Source of the DNA: Solimonas aquatica
Lineage (GTDB): Bacteria; Pseudomonadota; Gammaproteobacteria; Nevskiales; Nevskiaceae
Reading direction: 5' to 3'
Assembly: GCF_900111015.1 (NCBI RefSeq)
Contig: NZ_FOFS01000006.1
Coordinates: 62,001-126,000, forward strand
Length of the DNA: 64,000 nucleotides
Part shown: one piece after another, positions 3,906-17,607 of the stretch
Layout: every line of letters begins with the position of its first letter
Position numbering within the stretch: position 1 is the stretch's first letter
The notes under the pieces: model-generated
Seen by the model: the letters and a program-made list of their open reading frames with translations, nothing else
What the model was told of the DNA's origin: nothing
Databases searched by the model: none
Program-made: the position numbers and the translations under genes

Positions 3906-4447
3906 GCGTGCGCTTCCCGACGGCGGCGCAGCCGCCACCGCAGAACCAGCAGCGCCAGCGGCAACAGCAGCAGCGCCAGCCATGCGGGCGGCGCGTGCGA
4001 GGCCGCCGGCGCCGCCTGGGTTTCGGCCGCGAGCACACCGTCGAGCTGCTCCTGCCAATGCTCGCCGCGCGCGATGATTTGCAGCGGCAAGGCCTCACGC
4101 GCCGGCAGCACACCCGGCGGCACGCGATACAGACCCTCGCCTGCCGGTGCCGCCTGCACGCTGCGCGCGCCGCTGCGCAACTGCAGGTTCAGGCCCGACA
4201 GCGGCGCATTGCTCTGATAGTCATCGGCATAGATCAGCAGGCCGGCGTCGCCATCGCGCAGCACGACCAGCTCCAGATGCGTGCCGCTCAGCGCCAGGCG
4301 CGGCGAGTCATCCGGTGGCGGCGGCATCGACTCTGCGGCCTGCGGCGGCACTTCCTGCGCCGGCTCGTGGACATGACCCTCATGCGCCGGCGCGCGCAAG
4401 GCCAGCGCCAACAGTGCGAGCAGCAGACCAGCCTGGGCTGCCTTCAT
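3902..4447 (-). CDS. His-rich, membrane-anchored periplasmic protein of the MbnP operon
   Basis: This 181-residue protein has a signal peptide, then a His-rich stretch (HEGHVHEP from residue 22), about 90 residues of probable beta-rich domain, and one C-terminal membrane helix ending in an Arg-rich tail. It is therefore a periplasmic domain tethered to the inner membrane. The start ATG overlaps the MbnH stop as ATGA, and its own stop overlaps the RND start as TTGA, so translation is probably coupled. From memory, the central domain resembles the N-terminal Ig-like region of some adaptors of CzcA-type pumps, but the adaptor hairpin and lipoyl parts are absent. A role in handing metal to the permease is inferred. 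I do not recognise a named family. Confidence 0.75.
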   Translation of the reverse strand: MKAAQAGLLLALLALALRAPAHEGHVHEPAQEVPPQAAESMPPPPDDSPRLALSGTHLELVVLRDGDAGLLIYADDYQSNAPLSGLNLQLRSGARSVQAAPAGEGLYRVPPGVLPAREALPLQIIARGEHWQEQLDGVLAAETQAAPAASHAPPAWLALLLLPLALLVLRWRLRRRREAHA

Positions 4448-5490
4448 GAATCTTCTCCGGGATCGGCAAAGCGCGGATCGTGCAGAAAGCGCTCGTCGGT
4501 GAGCGTGTCGAGAAACGCGCGCAGTGCGGCGCGGTCCGCCGCGTCGAGCTTCAGACCCTGGCGCAGCGCCGGGTCCAGCGTGGCGGAAGACACGATGCCT
4601 TCGGCGTAATGGGCCAGCACCGCGTCCAGGGTTTCGAAGCGACCATCGTGCATGTACGGCCCGCTCACCGCGATGTTGCGCAGCGAGGGCACGCGGAACA
4701 GGCCGCGATCCTCGGCGCGCTCGGTGATGTGTGCACGGCCCGGATCCCGGGGCTCGGCATCCAGGCCGTTGTTGCGGAAACTGTAGTCGCTGAACAGCGG
4801 CTCGCGATGGCAGCTGACGCATTGCGCGCGGAACACCGCCAGGCCGCGCTGCTCCTGCGCATTGAAACGCACACGGCCGGCCAGGTAGCGGTCATAAGGC
4901 GAATCCGCCGACTGCAGCGTGCCGACGAACTGGGTCAGCGCCAGCAGCACGTGCTGACCATCGATGCGCGGCGAGCCGAAGGCGGCGGCGAAGCGCGGCG
5001 GATAGCGCGGATCATCCTGCAGCTTGCGCACCACGCCCGCCAGGGTCTCGGCCATCTCCACCGGATTGCTGATGGGCCCCAGTGGCTGCACTTCCAGCGG
5101 ATGCACGCCACCGTCCCACATGAAGCTCGGCTGCCAGGCCAGATTGAACAGCGCCGGGGCATTGCGCGTGCCCAGCGCATTGTTGACGCCATGGCTGAGG
5201 CGGTGCCCGGCGTTGGCAAAGGCCACGAACTGCTGATGGCAGTTGGCGCAGGCAATGCTGTCGTCGCGCGACAGCTTGGGCTCGTAGAACAGCGCGCGGC
5301 CCAGCTCGAAGCCGGCGCGGCTGAGCGGATTGCCGGAGAAATCGTAGACCGGTCGCGGCCAGCCCTCAGGCTGCTGCAGTCGCGGTGTGCCGTGCCGGCG
5401 CCAGCTGTCGGCAGCCAGCTGCGAAAACTGCGGCCAGCCCAGCGCCAGACCCAGCCCCACCAGCGTCAGGAACACAGCCAGCCATTTCAT
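4444..5490 (-). CDS. mbnH: di-haem MauG/cytochrome-c-peroxidase-family protein, MbnH-like
   Basis: The 348-residue protein has an N-terminal membrane/signal segment and two c-type haem motifs, CANCH (81-85) and CVSCH (224-228), with the spacing of the bacterial CcpA/MauG family. It should act in the periplasm. MbnH of methanobactin loci is a member of this family that oxidises a tryptophan of MbnP to kynurenine. Here the gene follows an MbnP gene directly, with an ATGA overlap (stop at 5487-5489, start at 5488-5490), which is the reason for preferring MbnH to a plain peroxidase. No methanobactin precursor or biosynthesis gene is visible. An ordinary cytochrome c peroxidase is the alternative. 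Confidence 0.82.
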   Translation of the reverse strand: MKWLAVFLTLVGLGLALGWPQFSQLAADSWRRHGTPRLQQPEGWPRPVYDFSGNPLSRAGFELGRALFYEPKLSRDDSIACANCHQQFVAFANAGHRLSHGVNNALGTRNAPALFNLAWQPSFMWDGGVHPLEVQPLGPISNPVEMAETLAGVVRKLQDDPRYPPRFAAAFGSPRIDGQHVLLALTQFVGTLQSADSPYDRYLAGRVRFNAQEQRGLAVFRAQCVSCHREPLFSDYSFRNNGLDAEPRDPGRAHITERAEDRGLFRVPSLRNIAVSGPYMHDGRFETLDAVLAHYAEGIVSSATLDPALRQGLKLDAADRAALRAFLDTLTDERFLHDPRFADPGEDS

Positions 5491-6293
5491 GAATCATGCG
5501 CGCGATGGCGAGGCTCGTTGTGGACATGATCGACATGGAACAGACCCGGCAGATTGTCGGACAGGGTCTTGCCCGCACTGCTGCCCATCACGGTATTGAG
5601 CTGCGCGATGCGGATCTCGTGCGTGCCACGGAACAGCTCGGCCAGATCCACGTACAGATGAATCTCGGGCTCGATGCGCTCGCTGACTTTCGCGACACTC
5701 GGCGCAAGCGGCAGATACACGCTGCGTGCGCGGTCCTGCGCATCGACGCTGCCCAGATGATAGGTCAGCGCATGGTCGTCCGCGCCGGACTGCGGCGAGT
5801 GGCCTTCGAGCTGCAGGAAGATGTAGCCGGACTTCCAGGTCCAGAACAGACCCTGGGCCGGATCGAGCGTACCGGACTGCACGCCGGCGTGATTGCGCGC
5901 CTCGTCCACCCCCACCAGGAATTCGATGCCATCGTAATCACCGGGCGGCACCGCTTCGATACGAAAGCGCAGCGAGGCCGGATCGGCCGCGTCCACCAGG
6001 TAATAGCCCTTGCTGGACTGCGCATCGACGGCCGGCACGAACCACTGGCCGTCGCGACGGTGCAGACGGAAGTTGCTCAGGTAATAGCGGAGCTTGTCGA
6101 CGCTGAAACGCTCGCCCTGCGGCGTGGGATATTGCGCCTCGTGCAACTGCAGCGCCTGGCCATCCACCTGATGCGTGATCTCCAGCGCCACCGCGCCGAC
6201 GGCCGTGGCCTGATGCCGGCCGCAAGCGGCCAGCATCACGGCCATCACGAGCCAAAGCACCCCCATGCGCGCTTTGCGCAGTCCCCAACTCAT
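5487..6293 (-). CDS. mbnP: MbnP-family copper-associated lipoprotein
   Basis: The 268-residue protein begins with charged residues, a hydrophobic stretch and a lipobox ending LAAC, so it should be a periplasmic lipoprotein. It carries hallmark segments of the MbnP family, including RYYLSNFRL, a GVD-containing region and WTWKSGYIFLQLEG. The two tryptophans at 151 and 153 sit where MbnP proteins carry the residue that MbnH converts to kynurenine. MbnP binds copper. The chosen ATG at 6293 follows a GGGGTAGGG stretch, and an in-frame TTG two codons earlier is less likely. It is the first gene of a four-gene overlapping operon. Its start lies inside a 120-bp element that is repeated upstream of the first CruR-like gene. 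Confidence 0.85.
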   Translation of the reverse strand: MSWGLRKARMGVLWLVMAVMLAACGRHQATAVGAVALEITHQVDGQALQLHEAQYPTPQGERFSVDKLRYYLSNFRLHRRDGQWFVPAVDAQSSKGYYLVDAADPASLRFRIEAVPPGDYDGIEFLVGVDEARNHAGVQSGTLDPAQGLFWTWKSGYIFLQLEGHSPQSGADDHALTYHLGSVDAQDRARSVYLPLAPSVAKVSERIEPEIHLYVDLAELFRGTHEIRIAQLNTVMGSSAGKTLSDNLPGLFHVDHVHNEPRHRAHDS

Positions 6294-6410
6294 GAGCAAC
6301 CCTACCCCGTATGCCTGCTTTTGCTATAGGCGGGGCATGCTAAGGCTTGCGCCTGCGACGACAAAGCAATTCTTGGGACTACCGTTATGCCATTTTGTTT
6401 GGGCCGGCAG
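6291..6410 (-). repeat. 120-bp leader/promoter repeat, copy 1 (upstream of mbnP)
   Basis: This stretch matches 9451-9570 along its length with only a one-base indel, at roughly three-quarters identity by eye. Read on the minus strand it ends with GGGGTAGGGT, a short spacer and the mbnP ATG. Conserved blocks include AAAATGRCATAACRGTAG and TTAGCATGCC. Possible -35 TTTGTC and -10 TAGCAT hexamers sit 17 bases apart at the same places in both copies. A shared promoter with a metal-responsive operator is the likely role, but that is inference. Confidence 0.75.
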
Positions 6411-6501
6411 CCCGGCACTCGCCGGGAATCAGGCAGCGGGCGGCGGCTCGGCTGCGCCCGCTGCCTTACCTCAGATCCGCATGAGGCCGCGCCCGCTGCG
6501 A

Positions 6502-8880
6502 TCAGAAGTCATAGTGCAGCTCGGCGAAGGCGCTGCGCTGCGGGAAGGGATGGAACAGGAAATACTTCTCGTTGTTGAGATTGTCCACGCCCAAGGCCGC
6601 CGACCAGTGCTTGTCGAGCTGATAGCGCACGCGGGTGTCGAACACCGTGTAGCCTTCGAAGCCCTGATAGGTGTGCGTGACGATGTCGCTGCCGTCCACC
6701 GTGGCATACAGGCGCGTGGCGTAGCGGCCGGCCAGCGACAGCGTCCAGTCCTCGTCCGGCCGGTAGCTGAGCACACCGCTGGCACGCCACTTCGCCACAT
6801 ACGGCGTGCGACGCCCCACCGAGTGCGCGCCCGCCGTCGTCGGCACATAGCTGTCGTTTTCCAGGATTTCGGCATCGACATAGGTGGCGCTGCCGGTGAA
6901 AGACAGGCCGTCGAGGAACAAGCGATCCTTGCCCACTTCCACTTCCACGCCACGCTGCCGGGTCTTGTCCAGGTTCTGCACGAAGGAGGTGGTGACGGTG
7001 CTGCTGAGCTGGGCGTTCTGCGAGATCAGCAGGTCCTTGACCGTTTCCTGGAACAGCGTCACGCGCAGCAGCGCATCATGGTGCCGATAGATGGCACTGA
7101 ACTCGCCGGCCCACACATCCTCCGGCTTGAGGTAAGGATTGGCCTGGGTGTAGGTCGAGCCGGTGGCGATGTTCTGATACAGCTCGCCGACCGTGGGGAA
7201 ACGCAGGGCGCGACCCAGCGAAGCCTTCAGCTCCAGCGCCGGCAGACTCTGCCAGGCCAGCGTGGCCTTGGGCGAGACACCACGCTTGTCGAGCTCGGGC
7301 TGCTGGACCGGGAAGTAGGTGAAGCTCGAAGTCCCGCTGCGGTTGTTGTTGAAACCGTCGAACGCTTTCCATTTCTCGTAGCGGGCGCCGACGGTGGCGG
7401 TCCATGCCGGCGCGATGCGCCACTGCTCCTGCGCCCAGGCCGCCAGCGTACGCGTCTTGCCGCGCGAATCACTGAACAGCGCGCCCTTGCCGGCGCTGAA
7501 CCAGTCGGGGCTGTCGTACAAGGGACTGGCCAGGTGGTACTGATCGGCATGCAGACCGGCGCTGAGGGTGTGCACGCTGGCCAGGCCCTGCGGGTGATAG
7601 CTGATCCGGGCGTCGGCCGTGCGCCAGCCGGTGTCGCCGGCGTCGGTGATGCGCCCGCTGCTGCTCTGATAATTGCTGCCGCTGCTGTTGCTGGGCGTCG
7701 AGGTCCGCGACAGATCCTTCACATAGTCGAAGTCACTGACCGCGAGCTGCCAGTCCAGGGTTTCGCTGCGATCCGTCAGGGACAGGCCCTGCGCCAGACG
7801 ACGCTGATCCACGGTACCGTCGCTGTACAGCGCGGCGATGGTGTTGGCGCTGTAGCTGTTGCCATTGATCGTGACCTTGCCGCTGCTGCCACCGCTGTTG
7901 CCGATATAGCTTGCGCCGCTGGCATCCTGCAGATAAGTCTGCGGCCGCGTGGTGGCGGTGTTCTGCCAGTAGGCCAGGGTGTAGACCAGCTGCAGCGTGC
8001 TGCTGAAGTCGTAGCCGAGACGGGCCACGGCGCTGTCCTGCGTGGTATGCGTCAGATTGCCCGCGCCCAGCACCAGGATGTTGCCGCCGGTGCGGTTGCG
8101 GTCGGCATAGGCGCCGCTGATCACGGGATCGCCGCTGGCCGCAGTGGTCGTGGATTTGCCGATGGTCAGATAGGTGACCGGCTGGCTGTTGCTGTCCAGG
8201 TGATTGAAATCCAGACGCCAGAACCAGGCACCGCGACGATCCGCCAGATCCGCGCCCAGCTCGTAGGCCTTGTAATCGCTATCGCTGCCGTACTGCCTGA
8301 AAGGCTGGAACGAGCTGTTGAGGCGCAGGCTGCTCTCGAACGTCTCCGGCGTGCGCGTGGCGATCTCCACGACCGCGCCATAGGAATTGCCGGGATAGGC
8401 CGCCGCGTAGGGGCCATAGAGCACATCGACATGGTCGATGGCGCCGGGCGGCACCAGAAACCATTGCGGCGAACCATTGCCGTTGTTGTTGTTGACCAGG
8501 GTCGAGAGCAGCAGGCCATCGGCGTAGATCAGGCTGCGGGCGCTGGCATTGATACCGGTGGTGCGCGTCGCCACCGGTGCATTGGTGTCGCCGATGTAAC
8601 GCTTGCGCACCAGCAGGCTGGGCAGATATTTCAGCGCATCCTCGGTGTTGCTCAGATTGACGGTCTGCTGCAGCTGCTCGGCCGAGACCGTCTGCACAAT
8701 CGCCGGCGTCCTGGCCGGCGCCGGGCGCTGGCGCAGCGCCTCCACCACCACGGTTTGCTCATCCACTTCTGCTACTGCCAGCGGCTGCACGGCATCCGCT
8801 TCGGCCCTGGCGAGGGCGGGCAACAGAAGCGCACTGGAAAACAGCCCGGCGGCACGCCAGGCGATATGACGATAAGACAT
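6502..8880 (-). CDS. TonB-dependent outer-membrane receptor downstream of CruR-like uORF
   Basis: This 792-residue protein starts at an ATG preceded by GGGGAAGG, has a signal peptide ending ALARA, a plug domain with the TonB-receptor pattern (VLYGPYAAAYPGNSYG and neighbouring residues) and a barrel ending in aromatic FAELHYDF. An ATG further out in the same frame would give a much longer N-terminus with no signal peptide, so it was rejected. The gene follows the DUF2946/CruR-like gene by 85 bases and precedes the MbnP operon. Copper or a copper chelate is the likely substrate from this context, since CruR controls TonB receptors for copper in Bordetella. Residues that would define the ligand are not evident. 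Confidence 0.9.
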   Translation of the reverse strand: MSYRHIAWRAAGLFSSALLLPALARAEADAVQPLAVAEVDEQTVVVEALRQRPAPARTPAIVQTVSAEQLQQTVNLSNTEDALKYLPSLLVRKRYIGDTNAPVATRTTGINASARSLIYADGLLLSTLVNNNNGNGSPQWFLVPPGAIDHVDVLYGPYAAAYPGNSYGAVVEIATRTPETFESSLRLNSSFQPFRQYGSDSDYKAYELGADLADRRGAWFWRLDFNHLDSNSQPVTYLTIGKSTTTAASGDPVISGAYADRNRTGGNILVLGAGNLTHTTQDSAVARLGYDFSSTLQLVYTLAYWQNTATTRPQTYLQDASGASYIGNSGGSSGKVTINGNSYSANTIAALYSDGTVDQRRLAQGLSLTDRSETLDWQLAVSDFDYVKDLSRTSTPSNSSGSNYQSSSGRITDAGDTGWRTADARISYHPQGLASVHTLSAGLHADQYHLASPLYDSPDWFSAGKGALFSDSRGKTRTLAAWAQEQWRIAPAWTATVGARYEKWKAFDGFNNNRSGTSSFTYFPVQQPELDKRGVSPKATLAWQSLPALELKASLGRALRFPTVGELYQNIATGSTYTQANPYLKPEDVWAGEFSAIYRHHDALLRVTLFQETVKDLLISQNAQLSSTVTTSFVQNLDKTRQRGVEVEVGKDRLFLDGLSFTGSATYVDAEILENDSYVPTTAGAHSVGRRTPYVAKWRASGVLSYRPDEDWTLSLAGRYATRLYATVDGSDIVTHTYQGFEGYTVFDTRVRYQLDKHWSAALGVDNLNNEKYFLFHPFPQRSAFAELHYDF

Positions 8881-8908
8881 GAACCTTCCCCGATAGATCC
8901 GGCGCGCA

Positions 8909-8921
8909 GCCTCCTGGAGGC
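8909..8921 (-). other. small palindrome in the CruR1-receptor gap
   Basis: GCCTCC and GGAGGC flank a single base, making a compact palindrome 28 bases before the receptor start. It lies in the 85-base gap where copper-induced termination would act in a CruR unit. There is no U-tract, so it is not a standard terminator. Confidence 0.4.
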
Positions 8922-8965
8922 CGCACGCGCTTTTGCGTAGTTGAAACGGCAGGAAAAAAGAGAGC

Positions 8966-9331
8966 TCAGGGAAACTGTGGTGGCGCGCGGGACGGTGGAC
9001 GCAGCCGTTTGCCGCGCGCATGCCGCGCCGGCAGGTCAAGACTGAACGAGGGGCCCCGCAGCGGAAGCAGCGTTGCAAACAGCGGCGCCTTGCCCGGCAC
9101 GCCGGCCATGGCGCTGAACGCAAATGCGCAGTGCGAAAATCCGGACTGCGTCGACGTCAGATGATCCTTCTGTGCCGGTGAAGCGTTCTGCTCGCCACAC
9201 AGAATCAGGCCGTAGGCATCGCTGCCGGCCTCGCGGCCGAGCATGTAGCCGGCCGGAATCAGCGCGCGCAGCAGCACGGCCGCGAGGGCCAGCCACAAAG
9301 CCAGACGCTGCGCGCGCAAGGGAATCAGCAA
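8966..9331 (-). CDS. cruR: DUF2946 CruR-like copper-responsive upstream regulator 1
   Basis: The 121-residue product has a hydrophobic N-terminal helix (ALWLALAAVLLRALIPAGYM) typical of DUF2946, C45 in LILCGEQ, an HC pair at 67-68 and the sequence RAPP at 115-118, six residues before the stop. In Bordetella pertussis the homologous CruR senses copper during its own translation through a CXXC motif, and its RAPP motif arrests ribosomes and controls termination before the TonB receptor gene. Here the second Cys of CXXC is alanine (HCAFA). The start is a TTG that overlaps the end of a 42-codon ORF. The gene is followed by a TonB receptor. It is probably a regulatory ORF rather than a protein with a separate function. 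Confidence 0.8.
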   Translation of the reverse strand: MLIPLRAQRLALWLALAAVLLRALIPAGYMLGREAGSDAYGLILCGEQNASPAQKDHLTSTQSGFSHCAFAFSAMAGVPGKAPLFATLLPLRGPSFSLDLPARHARGKRLRPPSRAPPQFP

Positions 9332-9453
9332 GGGCGGGTAACCTGACAGTGCACGCTCAGGAATGGGCGCCCCGGGCGCTCATCTGCCACCGAACCTTGT
9401 GGCCAGGGCAGAGCCCGGCCGCACAGGCCTTGCGCACGCTCCCCCCGATTCAT
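9325..9453 (-). CDS. possible 42-codon leader ORF overlapping cruR1
   Basis: The ATG that ends leader-repeat copy 2 matches the position used as the mbnP start in copy 1. It opens a 42-codon ORF whose TGA lies inside the TTGCTGA that begins cruR1. GGGGTAGGG lies upstream as a ribosome site. The product has three cysteines and no recognisable fold. The arrangement would couple cruR1 translation to this leader. It could also simply be vestigial. Confidence 0.45.
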   Translation of the reverse strand: MNRGERAQGLCGRALPWPQGSVADERPGRPFLSVHCQVTRPC

Positions 9454-9570
9454 GAGCCACCCTACCCCGTATGTCTGCTATTTCCGTCAGCGGCGGCATG
9501 CTAAGACTTGCCCCCGCCGCGACCAAGCAATTTCTGGCACTACTGTTATGTCATTTTGTTCGGGCCGGCC
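9451..9570 (-). repeat. 120-bp leader/promoter repeat, copy 2 (upstream of cruR1)
   Basis: This is the partner of 6291-6410. Only 23 bases separate it from the end of the PepSY gene, so the promoter of the cruR1-receptor unit probably lies inside the repeat. Candidate TTGGTC and TAGCAT hexamers are 17 bases apart, and AAAATGACATAACAGTAG lies upstream of them. Confidence 0.75.
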
Positions 9571-9593
9571 GCCTCGCCGCAGCCGGCTCCGGT

Positions 9594-10958
9594 TCAGTGC
9601 GGCTGCAGGCCCAGAAACGCGCGCAGCGGCGCATGCCGGCGCAGCAGATAGCGCTCGCTCAGATACACCAGCAGCAGGCTCGCGCCCATCAGCGGCAGCA
9701 GCAATCCGAGCAGCAGCACCAGCGCCAGCAGCCAGGTGACGAAGCGTGGCGGCGCACCGGCCGGCGGCGCACCCAGCTGCCCCTGCGGACGACGCGTCCA
9801 CCACAGCTGCACGGCGCTGATGCACAGCGTGATCAGCCCCAGCGCGGTGAGCAGACCCAGCAGCTGATTGAACCAGCCGAACAGCTGCCCCTCATGCGCG
9901 GCGACGCCGGTGCCGATGATGCGGTCGAGCAGCTTGCGGTCGGCAAAGTTCTCGCGCTGCACGACGGCGCCGGTCTGTGCGTCCAGCAGCAGCCGCACCC
10001 GCTGCGGCCGGTTCTGCGTATCCGAGCGCGCGGTCCACCGCGGCTCGCGCGCGGTGGGCGGCGCGATCAGCACCGGCGGCGGCAGCTGCAGGGCGCTCAC
10101 TGCCGGCAGCACACGATCCACGGCTGCGAGATCGACGGGCGGCTGCCCGCTCATGCTGCCGTGATGATGGCCGGCATGCTCGCCGCCTTCTTCCACACGG
10201 CGCTGGACCAGCTCGGCGGAATGGCCGGTGGTCCAGTCCTGCTGAATCGGCACGCTGGCCACGATCTGCCGCACCGCCTTGAGATTGCCGCCCCAGAACT
10301 TGGCCCAGGGCAGGCCGCTGAGCAGCAGGAACAGCGCGAATACCGAAACCCAGAAGCCGGTCACCGCGTGCAGATCGCGCCAGAACAGACGGCCATGGGC
10401 CAGGCGCGGATACAGCACGCCGCCCAGGCCCCGCTGCCCGCGCGGCCACCACAGCACCAGGCCGGTGATCACCAGCACGATGGCCCAGCAGGCCGCCAGC
10501 TCCACCAGCGCCGAACCGGCATCGCCCGCCAGCAGCTCGCCGTGCAGCAGGAACACCAGCCGCGTGAAGCGCTGGTCCTCGTCAACCCGCTTGAGTACCT
10601 GCAGGGTCTGCGGATGCACGTACACGCGGTACAGCGCGGTGTCGCGCCCCACCAGCACACGCACCGCCGACTGCGGCGTGGCCGGCAGCTCGTAGGCTTT
10701 CAGGCGCGCGCCGGGCACGGCGGCAAGCGCCGCCTCGATCTGCGCCTGGGCACTGGCGCGCGGTCCGTCGACGCGCAGCTGCTCGTAAGGCGCATCGATG
10801 CCTGCATCCAGCTGCGGCTTGAACAGATAGATGGCGCCGGTGAGCGACAGCCAGATCACGAAGGGAATGCAGAACAGTCCCGCGTAGAAATGCCAGCGCC
10901 AGATGGCCCGGTAATCGGGCCAGGCCGGCGCGGCGCGTACTGAGGTCGAAGTGCTCAT
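9594..10958 (-). CDS. PepSY-associated TM helix protein
   Basis: The 454-residue inner-membrane protein has the PepSY_TM layout: an N-terminal helix after WRWHFYAGLFCIPFVIW, paired central helices around ITGLVLWWPRG, a periplasmic region and two C-terminal helices. A His-rich loop (EHAGHHHGSMSG, near residue 270) could bind metal. Such proteins commonly accompany TonB receptors and are thought to reduce or release the imported metal. Its ATG is two bases after the receptor stop, so the two are co-transcribed. The order CruR, TonB receptor, PepSY resembles the Bordetella bp2923-bfrG-bp2921 operon. Substrate is inferred from context. Confidence 0.88.
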   Translation of the reverse strand: MSTSTSVRAAPAWPDYRAIWRWHFYAGLFCIPFVIWLSLTGAIYLFKPQLDAGIDAPYEQLRVDGPRASAQAQIEAALAAVPGARLKAYELPATPQSAVRVLVGRDTALYRVYVHPQTLQVLKRVDEDQRFTRLVFLLHGELLAGDAGSALVELAACWAIVLVITGLVLWWPRGQRGLGGVLYPRLAHGRLFWRDLHAVTGFWVSVFALFLLLSGLPWAKFWGGNLKAVRQIVASVPIQQDWTTGHSAELVQRRVEEGGEHAGHHHGSMSGQPPVDLAAVDRVLPAVSALQLPPPVLIAPPTAREPRWTARSDTQNRPQRVRLLLDAQTGAVVQRENFADRKLLDRIIGTGVAAHEGQLFGWFNQLLGLLTALGLITLCISAVQLWWTRRPQGQLGAPPAGAPPRFVTWLLALVLLLGLLLPLMGASLLLVYLSERYLLRRHAPLRAFLGLQPH

Positions 10959-10960
10959 GA

Positions 10961-13330
10961 TCAGAATTTCCAGTTGAAGCCGCCGTAGACGGCGCGCGCG
11001 CCGCCGGCATAGATCGAGCCGGTGCTGGCGGCCAGGGCCGTGGCATCACGCTGCGCGCCGGTGCCCGAATCGATGCTGTCGGAAATGTTGGCGGCTGATC
11101 CCACATAAGTCTTGTCAAACAGGTTCTGCACCGCCAGATGCAAACCCAGGCGCGACCACAGTCCCTGCTCCGCTGCCGGCTGATAGTGCAGATTCAGGTT
11201 GTAGATCGTGTAGCCCGGCGCCTTGAGCAGATTGGCATTGTCCAGAAAAAAACTTTCCCGGTAATTGGCTTCGACATAAGCGCCCCAGCCCTTGAGCCAG
11301 CCGGCCGGCTGATCGTAGGCCAGACGGGCATTGAGATACTGCGGCTGCACGCCGGGAATCTTGTTCTTGTCGCGCGTGAACAGGCGCGACTGGCTGCCGG
11401 CGCTGAGCCGCTCCTGATAATCGCGGTACAGCTGATCATCATAGAGATAGGCCAGCGAGCTGCTCAGGCCCGGCAGCCGCTGCGGCAGCATCTGCCACTT
11501 CAGCGCCAGTTCCACACCGCGATGCTCGGAACGCGGCGCGTTGTAGGTGTAGCTCAGCAGATTGGCGCCGGGCGACTGCGAAACCAGCTCATTGCGGAAG
11601 AACTCATAGAAGCCGGTGAGCGCGGCGCTGAACGCGGCATTCGGCGTCCAGCTGGCGCCCAGATCGAAACCCAGATTGCGCTGGGCCTTGAGCCGGGTGT
11701 TGTTGCCGGCCACGCCCTCCGGCGTCACGAACAGATTGCTCACCTGCGGCGTGCCGTAGCCGCTGGCCGCGCGCGCATGCAGGCGCCAGGCGGCATCGGG
11801 CCGGTACTGCAGCGCCAGCTCCGGTGCGAGATTGAAGAAGCTGCGCTGCGCGGTGGTGATGCTGGTGGTCGGTGCGCCGCTGCTGGGGTAGCTGTACGCG
11901 GTATTGCGTCCCAGCAGCCTGGTGAACTCGCCCGCCAGTCCGCCCACCAGGCTCCATTGCGAGGCCAGCTGCAGTTCCTCGCGAAACTTCAGGCCCATGC
12001 TCTGCACGCGCGCCGGGCTGTACTGCGTCATGCCGCCCAGCGCGGCGTGGCCATCCGGACGCAGATTGAAGCTGTAGGCATTGCTGTTCTGATACTGATA
12101 CCAGCCGCCGAGCGTGAGCTGCGAAGCGCGCTCCCACAGCAGGCCGCCGTGCGCCAGCTCGCCGGAGAAATTGAAGGACGGATAGTTGCCCAGACCGCCG
12201 GTGGCGCTGGTCGGCTGCTTGATGTCGCGGTTGTCGAACACCGCCTGCAGCCGCGCCTGGGTCTGCGCGTCGAAGTCATGCTCCCAGCGTGCACCGAGGA
12301 TGGTGCGGCGGTCGTTGCGCAGCAGGCCGGCCTGCTGCGGGCTCCGAAGCACCTTGCTGCCGTTGAAGCCGTTCTCGAACAGGCTCACCGAGGCGCAGGC
12401 CGTGCCTTCCAGCGCGCCGCAGTGCTGCTGGTAGGGATTCTGCCGGTACTGGTTGAGCGACAGGCGGATGGACAGGCTTGCATCCATCTCGTTGTCGATG
12501 AACTTGAACACCACGCGGTCGCGCGGCGTGAGCTGGAAGCTGGCCAGGATGTTCGCGGTGTTGGTCAGATAGCCGGTGTGCGCGGTCTTGCTTTCGCCGC
12601 GGGCATTGCTGAAGAAGCCGCTGTACTCGTAGCGCTCACCCTGATCGCCTACGGTTGCATAGGCGTTCAAATAGTCATAGCTGCCCGCGTCCAGCGCCAG
12701 TTCGGCACCGCGCAGCTCGCGGCCCGGACGCGTGTAGAACAGCACCGCACCGCCGGTGGCGTAATTGCCGTAGCCCGCCGAGGACGGCCCCTGCACCACA
12801 TCGATGCGCGAGTAGGCATGCGGATCGGTGAGATCGGTGCGCCCCAGGCCGTCGGGCTGCGTCACGGGAAAGCCGTCCTCGAACAGCTTGATGTTGCGCA
12901 CGCCGAAGGTCTGGCGGTTGTTGGAGCCGCGCACCGAGAGCGACACATCGCGCGGGCCATTGCCCTGCACGAAGGTCACGCCCGGCGTCATCGCCAGTAC
13001 CTCGGCGATGTTCAGTCCCGGCGCATGACGGAACTGCTCGCGCTCGACGCTGAGCGCGGTCTGTGCCACCGGCAGCGGCGCGGCGTGCGGGCGCTGCACC
13101 TGCACCAGCACGGTCTCCAGCTCCTCGTCGCTCACGGCGGCGGCGCTGCTTGCAGGCGCTGGCGCGGCCTGACGATCCAGTTCGCGCAGCTGGGCTTCGA
13201 TTTCGGCTTTCTGCTTTTCCAGCGCCTCGCGGCGGGCGCCGGCATCGGCGCTTTGCTGCGCTTCGGCCAGCATGGGCGCCAGCACCAGCAGGGAGGACAG
13301 CAGGCTCAGGGTTTCACGCTTGGACAACAT
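10961..13330 (-). CDS. TonB-dependent outer-membrane receptor downstream of CruR2
   Basis: This 789-residue protein has a signal peptide ending AEAQ, then a short Lys/Glu-rich coiled-coil-like segment (EALEKQKAEIEAQLREL) not seen in the other receptor, a plug with NIAEVLAMTPGV and SVRGSNNRQ, and a beta-barrel ending YGGFNWKF. The plug and barrel are more like siderophore/YncD-type receptors than like the first receptor. The coiled-coil insert may contact TonB or the periplasm. It is followed after two bases by the PepSY gene and preceded by the second CruR-like gene, with a 259-base gap that contains a perfect hairpin. Copper-related uptake is inferred from these neighbours. Confidence 0.9.
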   Translation of the reverse strand: MLSKRETLSLLSSLLVLAPMLAEAQQSADAGARREALEKQKAEIEAQLRELDRQAAPAPASSAAAVSDEELETVLVQVQRPHAAPLPVAQTALSVEREQFRHAPGLNIAEVLAMTPGVTFVQGNGPRDVSLSVRGSNNRQTFGVRNIKLFEDGFPVTQPDGLGRTDLTDPHAYSRIDVVQGPSSAGYGNYATGGAVLFYTRPGRELRGAELALDAGSYDYLNAYATVGDQGERYEYSGFFSNARGESKTAHTGYLTNTANILASFQLTPRDRVVFKFIDNEMDASLSIRLSLNQYRQNPYQQHCGALEGTACASVSLFENGFNGSKVLRSPQQAGLLRNDRRTILGARWEHDFDAQTQARLQAVFDNRDIKQPTSATGGLGNYPSFNFSGELAHGGLLWERASQLTLGGWYQYQNSNAYSFNLRPDGHAALGGMTQYSPARVQSMGLKFREELQLASQWSLVGGLAGEFTRLLGRNTAYSYPSSGAPTTSITTAQRSFFNLAPELALQYRPDAAWRLHARAASGYGTPQVSNLFVTPEGVAGNNTRLKAQRNLGFDLGASWTPNAAFSAALTGFYEFFRNELVSQSPGANLLSYTYNAPRSEHRGVELALKWQMLPQRLPGLSSSLAYLYDDQLYRDYQERLSAGSQSRLFTRDKNKIPGVQPQYLNARLAYDQPAGWLKGWGAYVEANYRESFFLDNANLLKAPGYTIYNLNLHYQPAAEQGLWSRLGLHLAVQNLFDKTYVGSAANISDSIDSGTGAQRDATALAASTGSIYAGGARAVYGGFNWKF

Positions 13331-13449
13331 GGATGTTCCTTGATGACGGCGTCCGGGCGGCGTACGGCGCCACCACGGCTTTTTTGAAGACGCGTCAGGA
13401 ACAGGCCGGGCTCGTCCGTTCGCACACGGACGCGGCCGGGGCTCGCGCG

Positions 13450-13466
13450 GTGGACATCGTGTCCAC
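13450..13466 (-). other. perfect hairpin in the CruR2-receptor gap
   Basis: Arms GTGGACA and TGTCCAC enclose three bases. The structure lies in the 259-base stretch between cruR2 and the receptor, where a CruR unit would control Rho-dependent termination. It has no U-tract. It could be an RNA structure or a protein-binding palindrome. The rest of the gap shows only a weaker GTCCG/CGGAC hairpin near 13411-13432. Confidence 0.5.
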
Positions 13467-13589
13467 GGTCTGGGCGCGACCCCGAACCAGCTTCAGATGG
13501 CTGCTGTCCCTGGGGAAATCTGCGGCCACGCCGGACGTGCGCAGCAGAGCCGCGCGCGCCGTGAAGCGCTCACCGCAGGCAAACGCGGT

Positions 13590-13955
13590 TCAGGACAAGG
13601 CAGGAGGCGCGCGTGGTGGCGGTCGCAGATGATCGCCAAGCGCATGGGGAAACAGCGCGGCCGTGCTGTGCGGGTCTTCGCGGCGCAGCGTCGGCAGGAA
13701 CAGCGGCAGCGCCGAGCCCGGCACGCTGGCCATGGCGCTGAGCGCGAAGGCACAGTGTGAAACGCCGCCCTGCGCATGCGTGACACTGTCCTTGAGCGAG
13801 GAGAAGGCGCTCTGCTCGCTGCACAGCACCAGTCCATAACTGCCGCTGCCGGCATCGCGGCCCAGCATGAAGCCGCCGGGAATCAGCGCGCGCAGCAGCA
13901 TGGCCGACAGGGCCAGCCACAGGGCAAGACGATGCGCGCGCAGCGGAATCAGCAC
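13590..13955 (-). CDS. cruR: DUF2946 CruR-like copper-responsive upstream regulator 2
   Basis: The product is also exactly 121 residues. It matches the first CruR-like protein closely over its first 45 residues and again at SHCAFA and GHL/RPPPRAPP. RAPP is at 115-118 in both, with only three residues after it. C45 and H67-C68 are kept, and the second Cys of the usual CXXC is again alanine. The start is a GTG at the position that matches the TTG of copy 1. It heads the receptor-PepSY operon and is divergent from an ECF sigma gene. Control of that operon by copper through translation arrest is inferred from the Bordetella system. Confidence 0.8.
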   Translation of the reverse strand: MLIPLRAHRLALWLALSAMLLRALIPGGFMLGRDAGSGSYGLVLCSEQSAFSSLKDSVTHAQGGVSHCAFALSAMASVPGSALPLFLPTLRREDPHSTAALFPHALGDHLRPPPRAPPALS

Positions 13956-14122: not shown

Positions 14123-14677
14123 ATGACAGAGATCACGCAGCTGCTGGATGAGCTTCGCGCCGGCGACGAGAACGCCCGCAACGAATTGTTCTCGGCGATC
14201 TACCCCACCCTGCAGCAGATCGCGCGGCAACGCCTCGGCCTGCAGCAGCACACCCTGCTCGATGCCCCGGCCCTGGTGCACGAGGCCTATCTGCGTCTGA
14301 CGCAGCGCGCCGGCCTGCCGCCCAGCAACCGCGCCAGCTTCTTCGCCTACGCTTCCTCGGTGATGCGCAATGTGATCATCGACTACGTCCGGCAACGCCA
14401 GGCCGACAAGCGCGGCGGCGGCGTCACCGAGCTGACGCTGACCACGGCCGAGCCGGAGGCGCCGCTGGCCAATGCCGATATCGAATCGCTGAACTCGGCG
14501 CTGGAAGCGCTGGCGCGTATCGACGCCCGCGCCCACGGCATCGTCGAGATGCGTTTCTTCGGCGGACTCACCATCGAAGAGATCGCCGAGGTGCAGCAGC
14601 TCTCGGTCGCCACCGTCAAACGCGACTGGCTCAAGGCGCGCGGCTTTCTGCTGCACACCCTGGAAGGCGCTGGCTGA
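14123..14677 (+). CDS. ECF-like RNA polymerase sigma factor (TIGR02999 type)
   Basis: The 184-residue protein has region 2 (AYLRLTQR through SVMRNVIIDYVRQRQADKRGGG) and a region 4 helix-turn-helix (TIEEIAEVQQLSVATVKRDW). The 'DKRGGG' linker is typical of the TIGR02999 group of ECF-like sigma factors. Two bases separate its stop from the start of the kinase gene, and sigma/kinase pairs of this kind are common, so the kinase may control it by phosphorylation instead of an anti-sigma factor. No strong ribosome site precedes the ATG. Confidence 0.88.
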   Translation: MTEITQLLDELRAGDENARNELFSAIYPTLQQIARQRLGLQQHTLLDAPALVHEAYLRLTQRAGLPPSNRASFFAYASSVMRNVIIDYVRQRQADKRGGGVTELTLTTAEPEAPLANADIESLNSALEALARIDARAHGIVEMRFFGGLTIEEIAEVQQLSVATVKRDWLKARGFLLHTLEGAG

Positions 14678-14679
14678 AG

Positions 14680-17607
14680 ATGAGCGGCAGCTCGCCTCAC
14701 ACGCAGCTGTGGCGCGAAGCCTTTGCCCTCGTCGATCAGCTGCTGGAGCAGACGGCGGCTCAGCGCGAAAGCGAGCTGCAGCGGCTCGCAGGCAGCCGCC
14801 CCGGGCTGCACCAGCGCGTGCTGGAACTGCTGCAAGCCACCGAGCAGGAGCAGGCGCCGGGCTGGTTCGAACAAGGCCCCATCGCGCTGCTGCCGACGGA
14901 CGCTGCACCCGGCGACTCGGCGCTGCGCCCCGCGCAGCTGCTGGGCGCTTACCGCCTGGAGCGTCCGCTCGGCCTCGGCGGCATGGGCGAGGTCTGGCTG
15001 GCGCGACGGGCCGACGGCCTGTTCGAAGCGCCGGTGGCGCTCAAGCTCCTGCACCTGCATCTGGCGGGCTCCACGGCGCGCGAGCGCTTCGTGCGTGAAG
15101 GACGGATTCTGGGTCAGCTCAGTCATCCCGGCATCGCGCGCCTGCTCGATGCCGGCGTGCTGCCGGGCGGGCAGCTGTATCTGGCGCTCGAATATGTGGA
15201 AGGCGAACGCCTGGATCAGTTCTGCGACGCACAGCGCCTGGACATCCGCGCGCGTCTGCAGCTGTATCTGCAGGTCTGCGAGGCGGTCGCGCATGCCCAC
15301 GCGCATCTGGTGGTGCATCGCGATCTCAAGCCCGGCAATGTGCTGGTGGGCGCCGGCGCGCAGGTCAAGCTGCTGGATTTCGGCATCGCCACGCTGGTGC
15401 AGGACGATGAACAGCCCCCCTCCGAGCTGACGCGCATCGGCGGACGCGCGCTGACGCCGGAGTACGCGGCGCCCGAGCAGATCAATGGCCAGACCGTCAC
15501 CGTCGCCACCGATGTCTACGCGCTGGGCGTGATGCTGTATGCGCTGCTGTGCGGCGAACGCCCTTACGGTGCGCCGGGTCAGTCGGCGGCGCAGCTGGAA
15601 CGCGCGGCGCTGCAGGCGCAGGTGCCGCCGATGAGCCGCACCGCGCTGCATGGCGCGGATCAGGCCGCTGCGCTGCGCGCAGCACAACGCGCCAGCAGTC
15701 CGCAGCGCCTGCGCCGCAGCCTGCGCGGTGATCTCGACACCATCGTCGCCAAGGCGCTGAAGAAGAATCCGCAGGAACGCTACGCCAGCGTCGCGGCCCT
15801 CGCCGACGATCTGCGCCGCCATCTCGCCGACGAGCGCGTGCTGGCCACGCCCGACAGCCTGCTGTACCGCAGCCGCAAGTTCGTGCGTCGCCATCGCCTC
15901 GGCGTGGCGCTGGCGGCGGTGGTGCTGCTGCTCGGCGCCGCCGGTCTGAGCAGCACGCTGTGGCAGGCGCACAAGGCGGCGCTGGAGGCCAGCAAGGCCA
16001 CCGCCGTGAAAAACTTCCTGCTGGGCATCTTCAACGCAAACGGCCTGGACAATCCGGACGGCGCCCAGGCAAGGCGGACCACCGCCGAGCAGCTGCTCGA
16101 CATCGGCGCCCGGCAGATCCAGAACGGCTTGCAGGAAGCGCCGGAGGTGCGCGCGGAGCTGCTGGGCATCATCGCGGGCCTGTATGACGATCTCGATCTG
16201 AGCGAGCGTGCCGCCGATCTGTATGCCCGCCAGCTGGCGGTGCTGCGCCAGACCCTGGGCAGCGGCGCCGATGCACGGCTCGCCGCCGTGCAGATCGCGC
16301 TGGGCGGCGCGCAGGCGGAAGGCGCCCGCTATGGCGAGGCGGAGCGCACCCTGCGGGAGGCGCTGCGCATGCTCGATGTCCTGCGGGATCGCGACTCCAG
16401 CGCCCGCGCCCATGCCCTGGCCTGGCTGTCGCAGATCGCCTATCAGACCCGCCCCATCGCCGACCCCGCCGCCGAGCAGCAGGCTGGCGAATCGCTGCGC
16501 ATCCTGCAAGACCATCATCCCGACGATGGCTTTCGCCTGACCGCGCTTCTGCAGCTGGCGCGCATCCAGCGCCGTCAGGGACATTTCGATCATTCCGAAG
16601 CGTATTTCCGCCAGGCGCTGGCGCTGCTGCAGACCCCGCCGTTCGCCAGCAGTCCAAGCGATCTGGCCAATGCCCGCATCGAATACGGCGAGATGCTGCG
16701 CAGCGCCCACCGCTGGGACGAGGCCGAGGCGCAGCTGCGCGAGGCCATGGCGCTCTACGCGCATCAGGTGGGAGAAGACCATGTGCGCTTCGCCGTGGCC
16801 CAGGAAGATCTCGGCGCGGTGCTCTACGACCGTGGCCGGCTCAGCGAGGCCAAGCCCCTGCTCGGCACCGCGCTGGCAACCTTGCGCAAGCTGCGCGGCG
16901 AGGATGATCTGGAATGGACGGTGGATGCGCGCATCTTCTACGCGCGCCTGCTGTTCGCACGCGGCGAGATCGATGCCGCCGGCGCGCTGCTGGATCAGAG
17001 CATCGCCTTCCTGCGCGCACAGGCGCCGGACAGCGTGTACCTGCCGATCGCCCTGCGCCAGCAGGCCGAGCGCCTCGCGACCCAGAAACAATGGCGGCTG
17101 GCCGAAGCCTGCATCGCCGAAGCCAGGCGCGGACTGGCGCGCTTCTACGGCCGCAGGCATGAGCGCTACGACGAGGCCTTGCTGACCCAGGCCGAGCTGC
17201 GCCTCGCGCAGGGTCGCCTGGACGAGGCGCAGTCGCTGTATGAAAGCCTGCAACAGGCGCCGCCGCCGGCGCCGGCCTGGCTGCCGGACCGCTGGCTGTA
17301 CACACAGCTGGGCCTGGCCCGTGTCGCGCTGGCGCGTGGCGATGCGCAGCGCGCAGTGGCGCGCACACGCGAGGCGCTGACGCATCTGCTGGCCTCCGCA
17401 CATCCGGAGCAAAGGCTGCGCCAGCAGGCGCAGCTGCAGCTCTGGCTGGGTCAGGCCCTGCTGCAGGCCGGCCGCGCCGACGAGGCCGTATCACCGCTGC
17501 GAGCGGCCGTGGCGCTGCGCGAAGCGATGGACGCCGCCGACAGTCCCTGGCTGGCGCAGGCGCGCGCCGCTCTGGCGCGCGCGCAGCGCGCCCGAGCGCA
17601 GCACTAG
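14680..17607 (+). CDS. transmembrane serine/threonine kinase with TPR sensor domain
   Basis: This 975-residue protein has a Hanks-type kinase domain with glycine loop GLGGMGEVW (98-106), lysine K122, catalytic HRDLKPGN (213-220) and DFG (233-235), all intact. A single membrane helix lies at about 405-427, and the rest is alpha-helical TPR-like repeats, predicted outside the cytoplasm. The domain order kinase-TM-TPR is common next to TIGR02999 sigma factors. It lies two bases after the sigma gene and should be co-translated with it. The signal that the TPR region detects is unknown. No protein phosphatase is visible nearby. Confidence 0.9.
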   Translation: MSGSSPHTQLWREAFALVDQLLEQTAAQRESELQRLAGSRPGLHQRVLELLQATEQEQAPGWFEQGPIALLPTDAAPGDSALRPAQLLGAYRLERPLGLGGMGEVWLARRADGLFEAPVALKLLHLHLAGSTARERFVREGRILGQLSHPGIARLLDAGVLPGGQLYLALEYVEGERLDQFCDAQRLDIRARLQLYLQVCEAVAHAHAHLVVHRDLKPGNVLVGAGAQVKLLDFGIATLVQDDEQPPSELTRIGGRALTPEYAAPEQINGQTVTVATDVYALGVMLYALLCGERPYGAPGQSAAQLERAALQAQVPPMSRTALHGADQAAALRAAQRASSPQRLRRSLRGDLDTIVAKALKKNPQERYASVAALADDLRRHLADERVLATPDSLLYRSRKFVRRHRLGVALAAVVLLLGAAGLSSTLWQAHKAALEASKATAVKNFLLGIFNANGLDNPDGAQARRTTAEQLLDIGARQIQNGLQEAPEVRAELLGIIAGLYDDLDLSERAADLYARQLAVLRQTLGSGADARLAAVQIALGGAQAEGARYGEAERTLREALRMLDVLRDRDSSARAHALAWLSQIAYQTRPIADPAAEQQAGESLRILQDHHPDDGFRLTALLQLARIQRRQGHFDHSEAYFRQALALLQTPPFASSPSDLANARIEYGEMLRSAHRWDEAEAQLREAMALYAHQVGEDHVRFAVAQEDLGAVLYDRGRLSEAKPLLGTALATLRKLRGEDDLEWTVDARIFYARLLFARGEIDAAGALLDQSIAFLRAQAPDSVYLPIALRQQAERLATQKQWRLAEACIAEARRGLARFYGRRHERYDEALLTQAELRLAQGRLDEAQSLYESLQQAPPPAPAWLPDRWLYTQLGLARVALARGDAQRAVARTREALTHLLASAHPEQRLRQQAQLQLWLGQALLQAGRADEAVSPLRAAVALREAMDAADSPWLAQARAALARAQRARAQH

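Follow-up and report, generated by a model that had tools for sequence, protein, structure and literature searches.

CruR (Bp2923), the leader of the bfrG/crtA operon in Bordetella pertussis, and CutF, the leader of cutO in Rhodobacter capsulatus, are the closest described systems to the one presented here. As far as the portions of the cited papers available to us go, copper represses the CruR operon, the CXXC and RAPP motifs of CruR are needed in vivo, and a semiconserved Cys is dispensable (C51S has no effect). Rho terminates transcription in the gap that follows the leader, and the authors dispute translational coupling because this gap is long (PMC9426467). Arrest of CruR at RAPP was shown in vitro in a study whose available text mentions neither Shine-Dalgarno (SD) nor stem-loop nor intergenic (PMC12992588). 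CutF was reported to employ an SD-shielding stem-loop, in a paper that also describes 29 clusters with varied metal sites (PMC9973294), and this model is repeated in a review (PMC10502375). In SecM-type SD masking, the SD of the following gene becomes available when a ribosome stalls on the leader (PMC10987492). CrtA copper receptors have also been described (PMC12914433), and operons headed by CruR are already known to include MbnP-MbnH pairs (PMC9426467). In the literature seen, there is one worked example of how stalling on a CruR-type leader turns on the next gene (Rho, in B. pertussis) and one different example (the CutF stem-loop). Two leader open reading frames (ORFs) of this kind, cruR1 and cruR2, are found in a 64,000-nucleotide (nt) stretch of the Solimonas aquatica genome, which is called the window below.

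Each leader heads a unit with a TonB-dependent receptor gene (TBDT1 in unit 1, TBDT2 in unit 2). Read from right to left on the minus strand, the gene order is cruR2, TBDT2, PepSY_TM, cruR1, TBDT1, an MbnP-family gene and an MbnH-like di-haem gene. The features of the two units are:

13590..13955, minus strand: cruR2, one-Cys DUF2946 leader ORF, GTG start, 121 residues
13602..13613, minus strand: RAPP codons 115-118 of cruR2
13331..13589, minus strand: gap of unit 2, 259 nt
10961..13330, minus strand: TBDT2, TonB-dependent receptor of unit 2 (Pfam Plug and beta-barrel)
9594..10958, minus strand: PepSY_TM protein of unit 2 (Pfam)
8966..9331, minus strand: cruR1, one-Cys DUF2946 leader ORF, TTG start, 121 residues
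9197..9199, minus strand: C45 codon of cruR1
9128..9130, minus strand: C68 codon of cruR1, aligned with the first Cys of CXXC
8978..8989, minus strand: RAPP codons 115-118 of cruR1
8966..8974, minus strand: putative anti-SD, the last two codons and stop of cruR1, UUUCCCUGA
8902..8928, minus strand: predicted hairpin of the unit-1 gap, between anti-SD and SD
8885..8893, minus strand: SD region of TBDT1, UCGGGGAAG, predicted partner of 8966-8974
6502..8880, minus strand: TBDT1, TonB-dependent receptor of unit 1, 792 residues
5487..6293, minus strand: MbnP-family copper-binding protein (Pfam PF20243, E value 2.8e-53)
4444..5490, minus strand: MbnH-like di-haem protein (Pfam CCP_MauG, E value 1.2e-50)

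The initial annotation had described both leaders as DUF2946 products of exactly 121 residues with C45, H67-C68 and RAPP at residues 115-118, and all of this was found to be so, coordinates included. The Pfam scores for DUF2946 (PF11162), 29.5 bits for cruR1 and 27.9 bits for cruR2, exceed the curated cut-off of 23.7 bits. The common length depends on the annotation, because the TTG and GTG starts have no obvious SD and lie in open frames of 137 (cruR1) and 125 (cruR2) codons. As in CruR, RAPP lies close to the C terminus, ending three residues short of it in both leaders, and the motif-to-RAPP spacing is similar, with 47 residues from C68 to R115 compared to 49 in CruR (C90 to R139). The N terminus of both is hydrophobic, as judged by eye. 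The leaders also share A71, so that C68-A-F-A71 stands in place of CXXC, the second Cys being absent as had been noted. Because CXXC is a defining feature of CruR, the two are not CruR in the strict sense. They represent a one-Cys DUF2946 variant that is probably CruR-like in its action.

The pair is a real duplication of one-Cys DUF2946 leaders. The two genes are 77% identical over 256 gapless nt and their proteins 63% identical. The ratio of non-synonymous to synonymous divergence (dN/dS) is 0.46, indicating moderate purifying selection, and the part from codon 84 to the end diverges fast (dN 0.62). Since cruR1 and cruR2 are paralogues, their common length and motifs stem from one parent and count as a single event. 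The genome contains two further DUF2946 matches, one above the cut-off with CALC and RAPP, the other, at 21.9 bits, below it and carrying CLDCC and RGPP; the frame after the latter was read by eye as PCuAC.

The layout had been likened to that of the CruR operon. The order of receptor and PepSY genes agrees with this: each leader heads its own TonB-receptor gene on the same strand, at a distance of 85 nt in unit 1 and 259 nt in unit 2, and unit 2 adds the PepSY_TM gene. By gene order alone, both leaders thus have the CruR trait of heading a TonB-receptor and/or PepSY_TM operon. The MbnP and MbnH-like genes that close unit 1 had been overlooked.

The most valuable outcome of the analysis is a new tendency seen across the sampled DUF2946 leaders, the complementarity between the tail of the leader and the SD of its own downstream gene. 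The literature searched, which lay mostly outside subscription papers, showed no description of codons following the DUF2946 arrest motif as a cognate anti-SD. The first clue came from leader ends such as CAG TAC TCC TGA, which mirror the SD of the next gene. In the tail test, the last 15 nt of each leader were compared with the -20 to -2 region of its own gene, with swapped partners as the control; the downstream genes and their starts were assigned heuristically rather than taken from annotation. Leaders with a gap of 20-320 nt and a C-terminal Pro-Pro (PP) were included, which retained 139 of 160 in the first set and 56 of 70 in the replication set. In the first set the longest Watson-Crick run was 4.94 with the own gene versus 3.84 with swapped partners (z 13.8), and the duplex energy was -9.76 versus -7.40 kcal/mol. 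The unchanged test gave 4.77 versus 3.92 in the replication set (0 of 3000 permutations), which came from the order of genome G166. That set comprised 70 of 102 rows, and its loci were distinct from those of the first set, although the latter has at least one member of the same order (L069). With redundancy removed, the value for 148 leaders was z 13.2.

The signal is localised, though not perfectly. When the leaders are aligned on the arrest motif, it rises at the second Pro codon, peaks immediately behind that codon (z 14) and has vanished 12 nt further on; the most frequent tail has three residues after PP (109 of 195 leaders). Runs of at least 6 were found in 62 of 195 leaders versus 6.4% of swapped pairs, so about two thirds of the leaders have no long run. 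Ordinary neighbouring gene pairs gave no tail-SD signal in samples of 48 and 106 pairs. Given the amino acids, the synonymous codons lean towards pairing: on recoding of 180 leaders the mean percentile was 0.71 for run length (p 8e-19) and 0.75 for energy (p 6e-20). A choice of starts that was blind to the SD gave z 15.4 for 179 leaders, 144 of which keep the same start. All gap-length classes carry the signal, which is weakest at 150-320 nt, and leaders without RAPP or RGPP keep it as a group (35 ORFs, z 5.65).

Folding of 150 leaders with gaps of up to 200 nt gave an SD-tail pairing probability of 0.337 for own tails versus 0.139 for exchanged ones. When the footprint of a stalled ribosome was blocked, SD accessibility rose from 0.25 to 0.42, compared to 0.31 to 0.41 with exchanged tails, and 67 of the 150 leaders gained more than 0.2, as against 25% with exchanged tails. 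Some good runs fold otherwise (L039 has an 8-nt run yet a pairing probability of 0.01). The rule appears to hold in two classes, the Gammaproteobacteria, to which Solimonas belongs, and one taken for Alphaproteobacteria.

It seems rather probable to us that DUF2946 leaders are in general SecM-like, the roughly three codons from PP to the stop being a dedicated anti-SD for the SD downstream, with a metal-sensing half that can be exchanged and an output half that is kept. One stalled ribosome would then both signal low metal and unlock translation. If true, the rule explains the usual three-residue tail after RAPP and predicts from DNA which metal genes are controlled in this way. It is simple and open to test by compensatory mutations.

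The two units of the window differ in this respect. In unit 1, UUUCCCUGA (8966-8974) is predicted to pair with UCGGGGAAG (8885-8893) over nine positions, two of them G-U, around the gap hairpin. The computed SD-tail pairing probability is 0.99, and the accessibility of the SD rises from 0.01 in the free RNA to 0.21 with a ribosome on RAPP. The tail-SD energy of -12.6 puts the SD of this unit in the best 3.1% of 195 SDs and its tail in the best 8.2% of 195 tails. SD masking of the CutF/SecM type is thus predicted for unit 1, and the folding model suggests that this unit is best read as a SecM-like translational switch, a possibility that the initial annotation had not raised. In unit 2 such masking was not found, and the SD of TBDT2 sits in a local hairpin far from the leader (13320-13469; z -2.81, 1 of 200 shuffles as stable). 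The tail codons of cruR2 nevertheless outdo their synonyms (percentile 0.95). Because of the 259-nt gap, which the tail fails to bridge to the SD in the model, Rho-dependent attenuation is, by analogy with CruR, probably the likeliest form of control in unit 2. The unit-2 gap also contains a perfect palindrome with 7-nt arms, GTGGACATCGTGTCCAC (13450-13466), present as a single copy in the window, which is a possible operator.

The one-Cys form, HCAFA in the window, had been considered unusual to this locus, but it is a recurrent type. Among 143 ORFs found with PF11162, 109 have CXXC, 17 have C-x-[FYW]-[AGS] (cruR1 and cruR2 counted), 16 have other forms and one lacks a C-terminal PP. These ORFs comprise 26 of 39 rows from a first search (two further rows of the 39 entered through the second), 28 of 35 from a second, and 89 of the 90 ORFs drawn from a third search with 122 rows. 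The second search lost four own rows, two without loci and L091, whose frame did not look DUF2946-like; the third lost one ORF that runs off its locus. A further set (A1), obtained with a profile of seven one-Cys leaders, retained 17 of 27 rows after removal of six own rows, three frames with internal stops and one frame of 53 codons. The four DUF2946 ORFs of the window genome are included in the ORF sets. The one-Cys profile matched 6 of the 369 genomes of the class and 15 of the 299 in the phylum sample, counts that both include the window genome and some matches that are not intact one-Cys leaders. By spacing, the retained Cys is the first Cys of CXXC, the distance from Cys to Arg having a median of 48 in one-Cys and 49 in CXXC leaders compared to 47 in the window. 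Counts of TonB-dependent receptors beside the two types (14 of 30 one-Cys, 29 of 147 CXXC) came from a crude BLAST and were not used.

Of the residues proposed to replace the lost Cys, H67 was rejected as a conserved metal ligand, since only 5 of 33 one-Cys ORFs carry a His directly before the motif Cys. All 33 one-Cys ORFs have C45, but so do 92 of 110 CXXC ORFs, and changing the semiconserved Cys of B. pertussis CruR to Ser (C51S) had no effect (PMC9426467), so that C45 is consistent with a substitute ligand and does not argue for one. The comparison is also confounded, because 16 of the 33 one-Cys ORFs came from a profile in which C45 is invariant, and for this reason the apparent link of C45 to the one-Cys class (Fisher p 0.013) was not relied on. 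In the PF11162 set of the class of genome G556, C45 occurs in 12 of 12 one-Cys ORFs as against 62 of 68. R[AG]PP is found in 102 of 110 CXXC ORFs and 23 of 33 one-Cys ORFs. Arrest motifs without Arg (ATGPP, STGPP, AIGPP and SQGPP) were seen in L051, L052, L048, L096, L110, L103, L105 and L044, all of them one-Cys except L044, and are possible new arrest motifs. Close DUF2946 pairs are not rare either, since 12 genomes, including that of the window, have matches within 7 kb on one contig (on opposite strands in G970 and G1015). Three matches lie within 7.1 kb in G610 (C1, 1256061-1263098). A metagenome-assembled gammaproteobacterium (L067, 5929-12126) has two DUF2946-TonB units, with PepSY-like and PCuAC-like frames seen by eye between them.

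At the level of sequence, the receptors stay and the leader in front of them changes. TBDT2-PepSY orthologues are found within the genus (56-63% identity). Those of G003, G007 and G008 are headed by one-Cys leaders, making four genomes with the window, whereas those of G001 and G009 (56-61% identity) follow a CXXC leader. In G007 and G008 the leaders end in ATGPP and were missed by the Pfam-profile search. That the same TBDT2-PepSY operon can carry a CXXC leader is the strongest reason to think that unit 2 responds to copper. Another genus of the family has TBDT1 orthologues in two genomes (65 and 69% identity); as in the window, each comes immediately behind a PepSY gene, these genes being 54 and 63% identical to that of the window. 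In the leader slot between the two genes, the frame of G029 is of the CXXC type but lacks an intact RAPP, and G018 has no frame with a C-terminal PP. In another genus of the family, a distant TBDT1-like receptor (34% identity; L273, 733-4949) has a leader ending in ARGPPQAS before it and a PepSY gene (31%) after it, which is the B. pertussis gene order. A tblastn search for MbnP and MbnH (E 1e-4) gave no match in the loci of three other TBDT1-like genes (L271-L273, flanks of about 1.5 kb), and a conserved TBDT1-MbnPH block is unsupported within about 1.5 kb on each side of these receptors.

Family membership, motif state, operon content, the tail-SD complementarity with its location, and the pairing prediction for unit 1 are computed results; beyond them we infer stalling, copper as the ligand, the direction of the response and the involvement of Rho. 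With moderate confidence, cruR1 and cruR2 are regarded as duplicated one-Cys CruR-type leaders that sense a metal, most likely copper, during their translation, with an SD switch in unit 1 and Rho in unit 2. At low copper the ribosome would stall on RAPP (codons 115-118). In unit 1 it would cover the last codons of cruR1 (UUUCCCUGA), an anti-SD that would otherwise be paired with the receptor SD 85 nt downstream, and the TBDT1 receptor would be made. MbnP and MbnH may share the transcript with TBDT1 or be served by a promoter of their own in the repeat before mbnP. Copper bound by the nascent chain through C68 and probably C45 or His residues would release the stall; the anti-SD would then close on the SD, and unstructured C-rich RNA would be left open for Rho. 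Unit 2 would probably be controlled by Rho-dependent attenuation as in B. pertussis CruR. Copper is the likely ligand because of the MbnP/MbnH-like genes in unit 1 and the CXXC leaders on TBDT2-PepSY orthologues. MbnP has a lipoprotein-like signal and a WTW motif (by eye). Its score lies under the curated cut-off of NCBIfam TIGR04052 (MbnP), and the MbnH-like protein matches TIGR04039 with an E value of 5.2e-64, yet under the curated cut-off as well.

A number of results weigh against this reading. The longest tail-SD run in unit 1 is only 5 nt, matched by 31% of 195 SDs and 17% of tails; the synonymous percentile is 0.42, and the gap is no more stable than its shuffles (z -0.67 and -0.89). 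In unit 2 the SD-tail pairing probability is 0, SD accessibility is 0.36 both free and stalled, and by energy the SD ranks at 68% among SDs and the tail at 21% among tails. The family signal is accompanied by weaker positives: in the first set, windows lying 21-45 nt ahead of the stop gave z 2 to 3.8, and in the replication set a far window at -54 gave z 3.8. The C-over-G bubbles at the leader ends are moderately unusual, the cruR1 value being reached by 1 of 38 window gene ends and that of cruR2 by 3 of 38, cruR2 itself among them, and Pro codons inflate this score. CXXC, which CruR needs for copper control in B. pertussis, is absent from both leaders. The nearest solved structures to TBDT2 and TBDT1 are YncD/PqqU, which does not fix the metal of unit 2, and a PDB sequence search with TBDT2 listed no entry named CrtA.

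Some of these points would suit a pure copy of CruR, in which Rho-dependent termination in the gap alone accounts for the control of both units and the tail-SD pairing of unit 1 is incidental. Rho was shown for CruR of B. pertussis, C-over-G bubbles are present at the 3' ends of cruR1 and cruR2, the cruR1 stop is followed by a CU-rich stretch, no pairing is predicted across the long gap of unit 2, and the unit-1 run is of ordinary length. This explanation is nevertheless doubtful in view of the cognate complementarity in the family sample, which was replicated and had negative controls, and of the unit-1 gap, only 85 nt long with a predicted pairing probability of 0.99. Simple translational coupling, whereby the receptor SD would be opened by every ribosome that terminates, without regulated arrest, agrees with the overlap of the anti-SD and the stop codon and with the signal kept by the 35 ORFs without RAPP or RGPP (z 5.65). 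It is very unlikely, however, given that ordinary gene pairs lack the signal, that R[AG]PP is so widely present in ORFs of both types (102 of 110 and 23 of 33), and that RAPP mutations abolish downstream expression in B. pertussis (PMC9426467).

The cue could also be something other than copper, such as zinc, another metal or export status, since the copper motif that has been demonstrated is incomplete. CXXC is lost in both leaders, CutF-like clusters include His-only forms tied to nickel/cobalt genes (PMC9973294, as far as available), a Caulobacter Zur study reports two downregulated DUF2946 genes in the part seen (PMC4176598), and TBDT2 resembles PqqU/YncD. We consider this unlikely because unit 1 contains MbnP and MbnH and because two genomes of the genus have CXXC leaders in front of the same TBDT2-PepSY operon. 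Little credence is given to the possibility that one or both leaders are decaying duplicates, constitutive after the loss of metal sensing. The overall dN/dS of 0.46, the retention of C45, C68, A71 and RAPP, and the recurrence of the one-Cys form in many genomes all speak against decay, although the second Cys is absent, the C-terminal part is diverging fast (dN 0.62, codons 84 to end), and the leader slots before the TBDT1 orthologues hold a CXXC frame without intact RAPP (G029) or no PP-ending frame (G018). The duplicated one-Cys leader with an SD switch in unit 1 and Rho in unit 2 remains the preferred reading.

Searches for other control elements were mostly negative. Rfam at gathering scores gave no match in the window, which rejects a riboswitch or other known RNA. 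Between 4200 and 14300, no sigma-70 promoter was found by consensus, and terminator-like sites are at chance level (5 versus a mean of 4.4). Three smaller features lie around cruR1 and mbnP:

9443..9586, minus strand: repeat copy upstream of cruR1
9325..9453, minus strand: 42-codon ORF before cruR1, from sequence only
6283..6425, minus strand: second repeat copy, upstream of mbnP

The repeat is about 143 nt long, and its copies are roughly 80% identical, with CATACGGGGTAGGGT and a common ATG. The genome contains two copies and one 25-nt match at E 0.55, and no match was found in 60 relatives at E 0.01. A dispersed or conserved element was rejected on these grounds, and the repeat is taken as a local duplication, probably of a promoter/leader. 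The stop of the 42-codon ORF overlaps the TTG start of cruR1 (TTGCTGA). This ORF may be a remnant of the copied mbnP start, and the overlap possibly couples its translation to cruR1. Adjoining cruR2, and divergent from it, are an ECF sigma factor and a Ser/Thr kinase with TPR repeats (14123-17607, plus strand).

The one-Cys branch provides natural variants for asking what a nascent chain needs for metal sensing. With its duplicated pair here, it would mean, if true, that the sensing half of the leader can be swapped within one operon without loss of the output half. It may already stand among the supplementary logos of PMC9973294.

Unit 1 resembles the known MbnP-MbnH pairs in having a PF20243 MbnP and a MauG-like di-haem partner, and differs in that its scores do not reach the curated NCBIfam cut-offs. 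The switch proposed for unit 1, in which a stalled ribosome makes the downstream SD available, has its counterpart in SecM-secA and related RAPP-type monitoring peptides (PMC10987492, in the part available). Unlike the leaders described here, they sense protein localisation, not metal. To our knowledge, there is no sequence relation of SecM-type peptides to DUF2946. CutF is DUF2946-like and is likewise described, in the text available, as a nascent exported metal sensor with a C-terminal Pro motif, and its SD-shielding stem-loop is opened by stalling. However, CutF has a CXXXC motif, and copper favours its stalling, which switches on a detoxifying oxidase. Furthermore, the anti-SD of CutF is part of an intergenic stem-loop and, in that text, is not described as family-wide cognate codons after the arrest motif. 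Compared to CruR, the window leaders have C-x-x-A instead of CXXC and a Cys-to-Arg distance of 47 instead of 49. The gap is 85 nt in unit 1 and 162 in CruR, and MbnP/MbnH take the place of the PepSY gene present in the CruR operon. The predicted anti-SD tail is a feature of unit 1.

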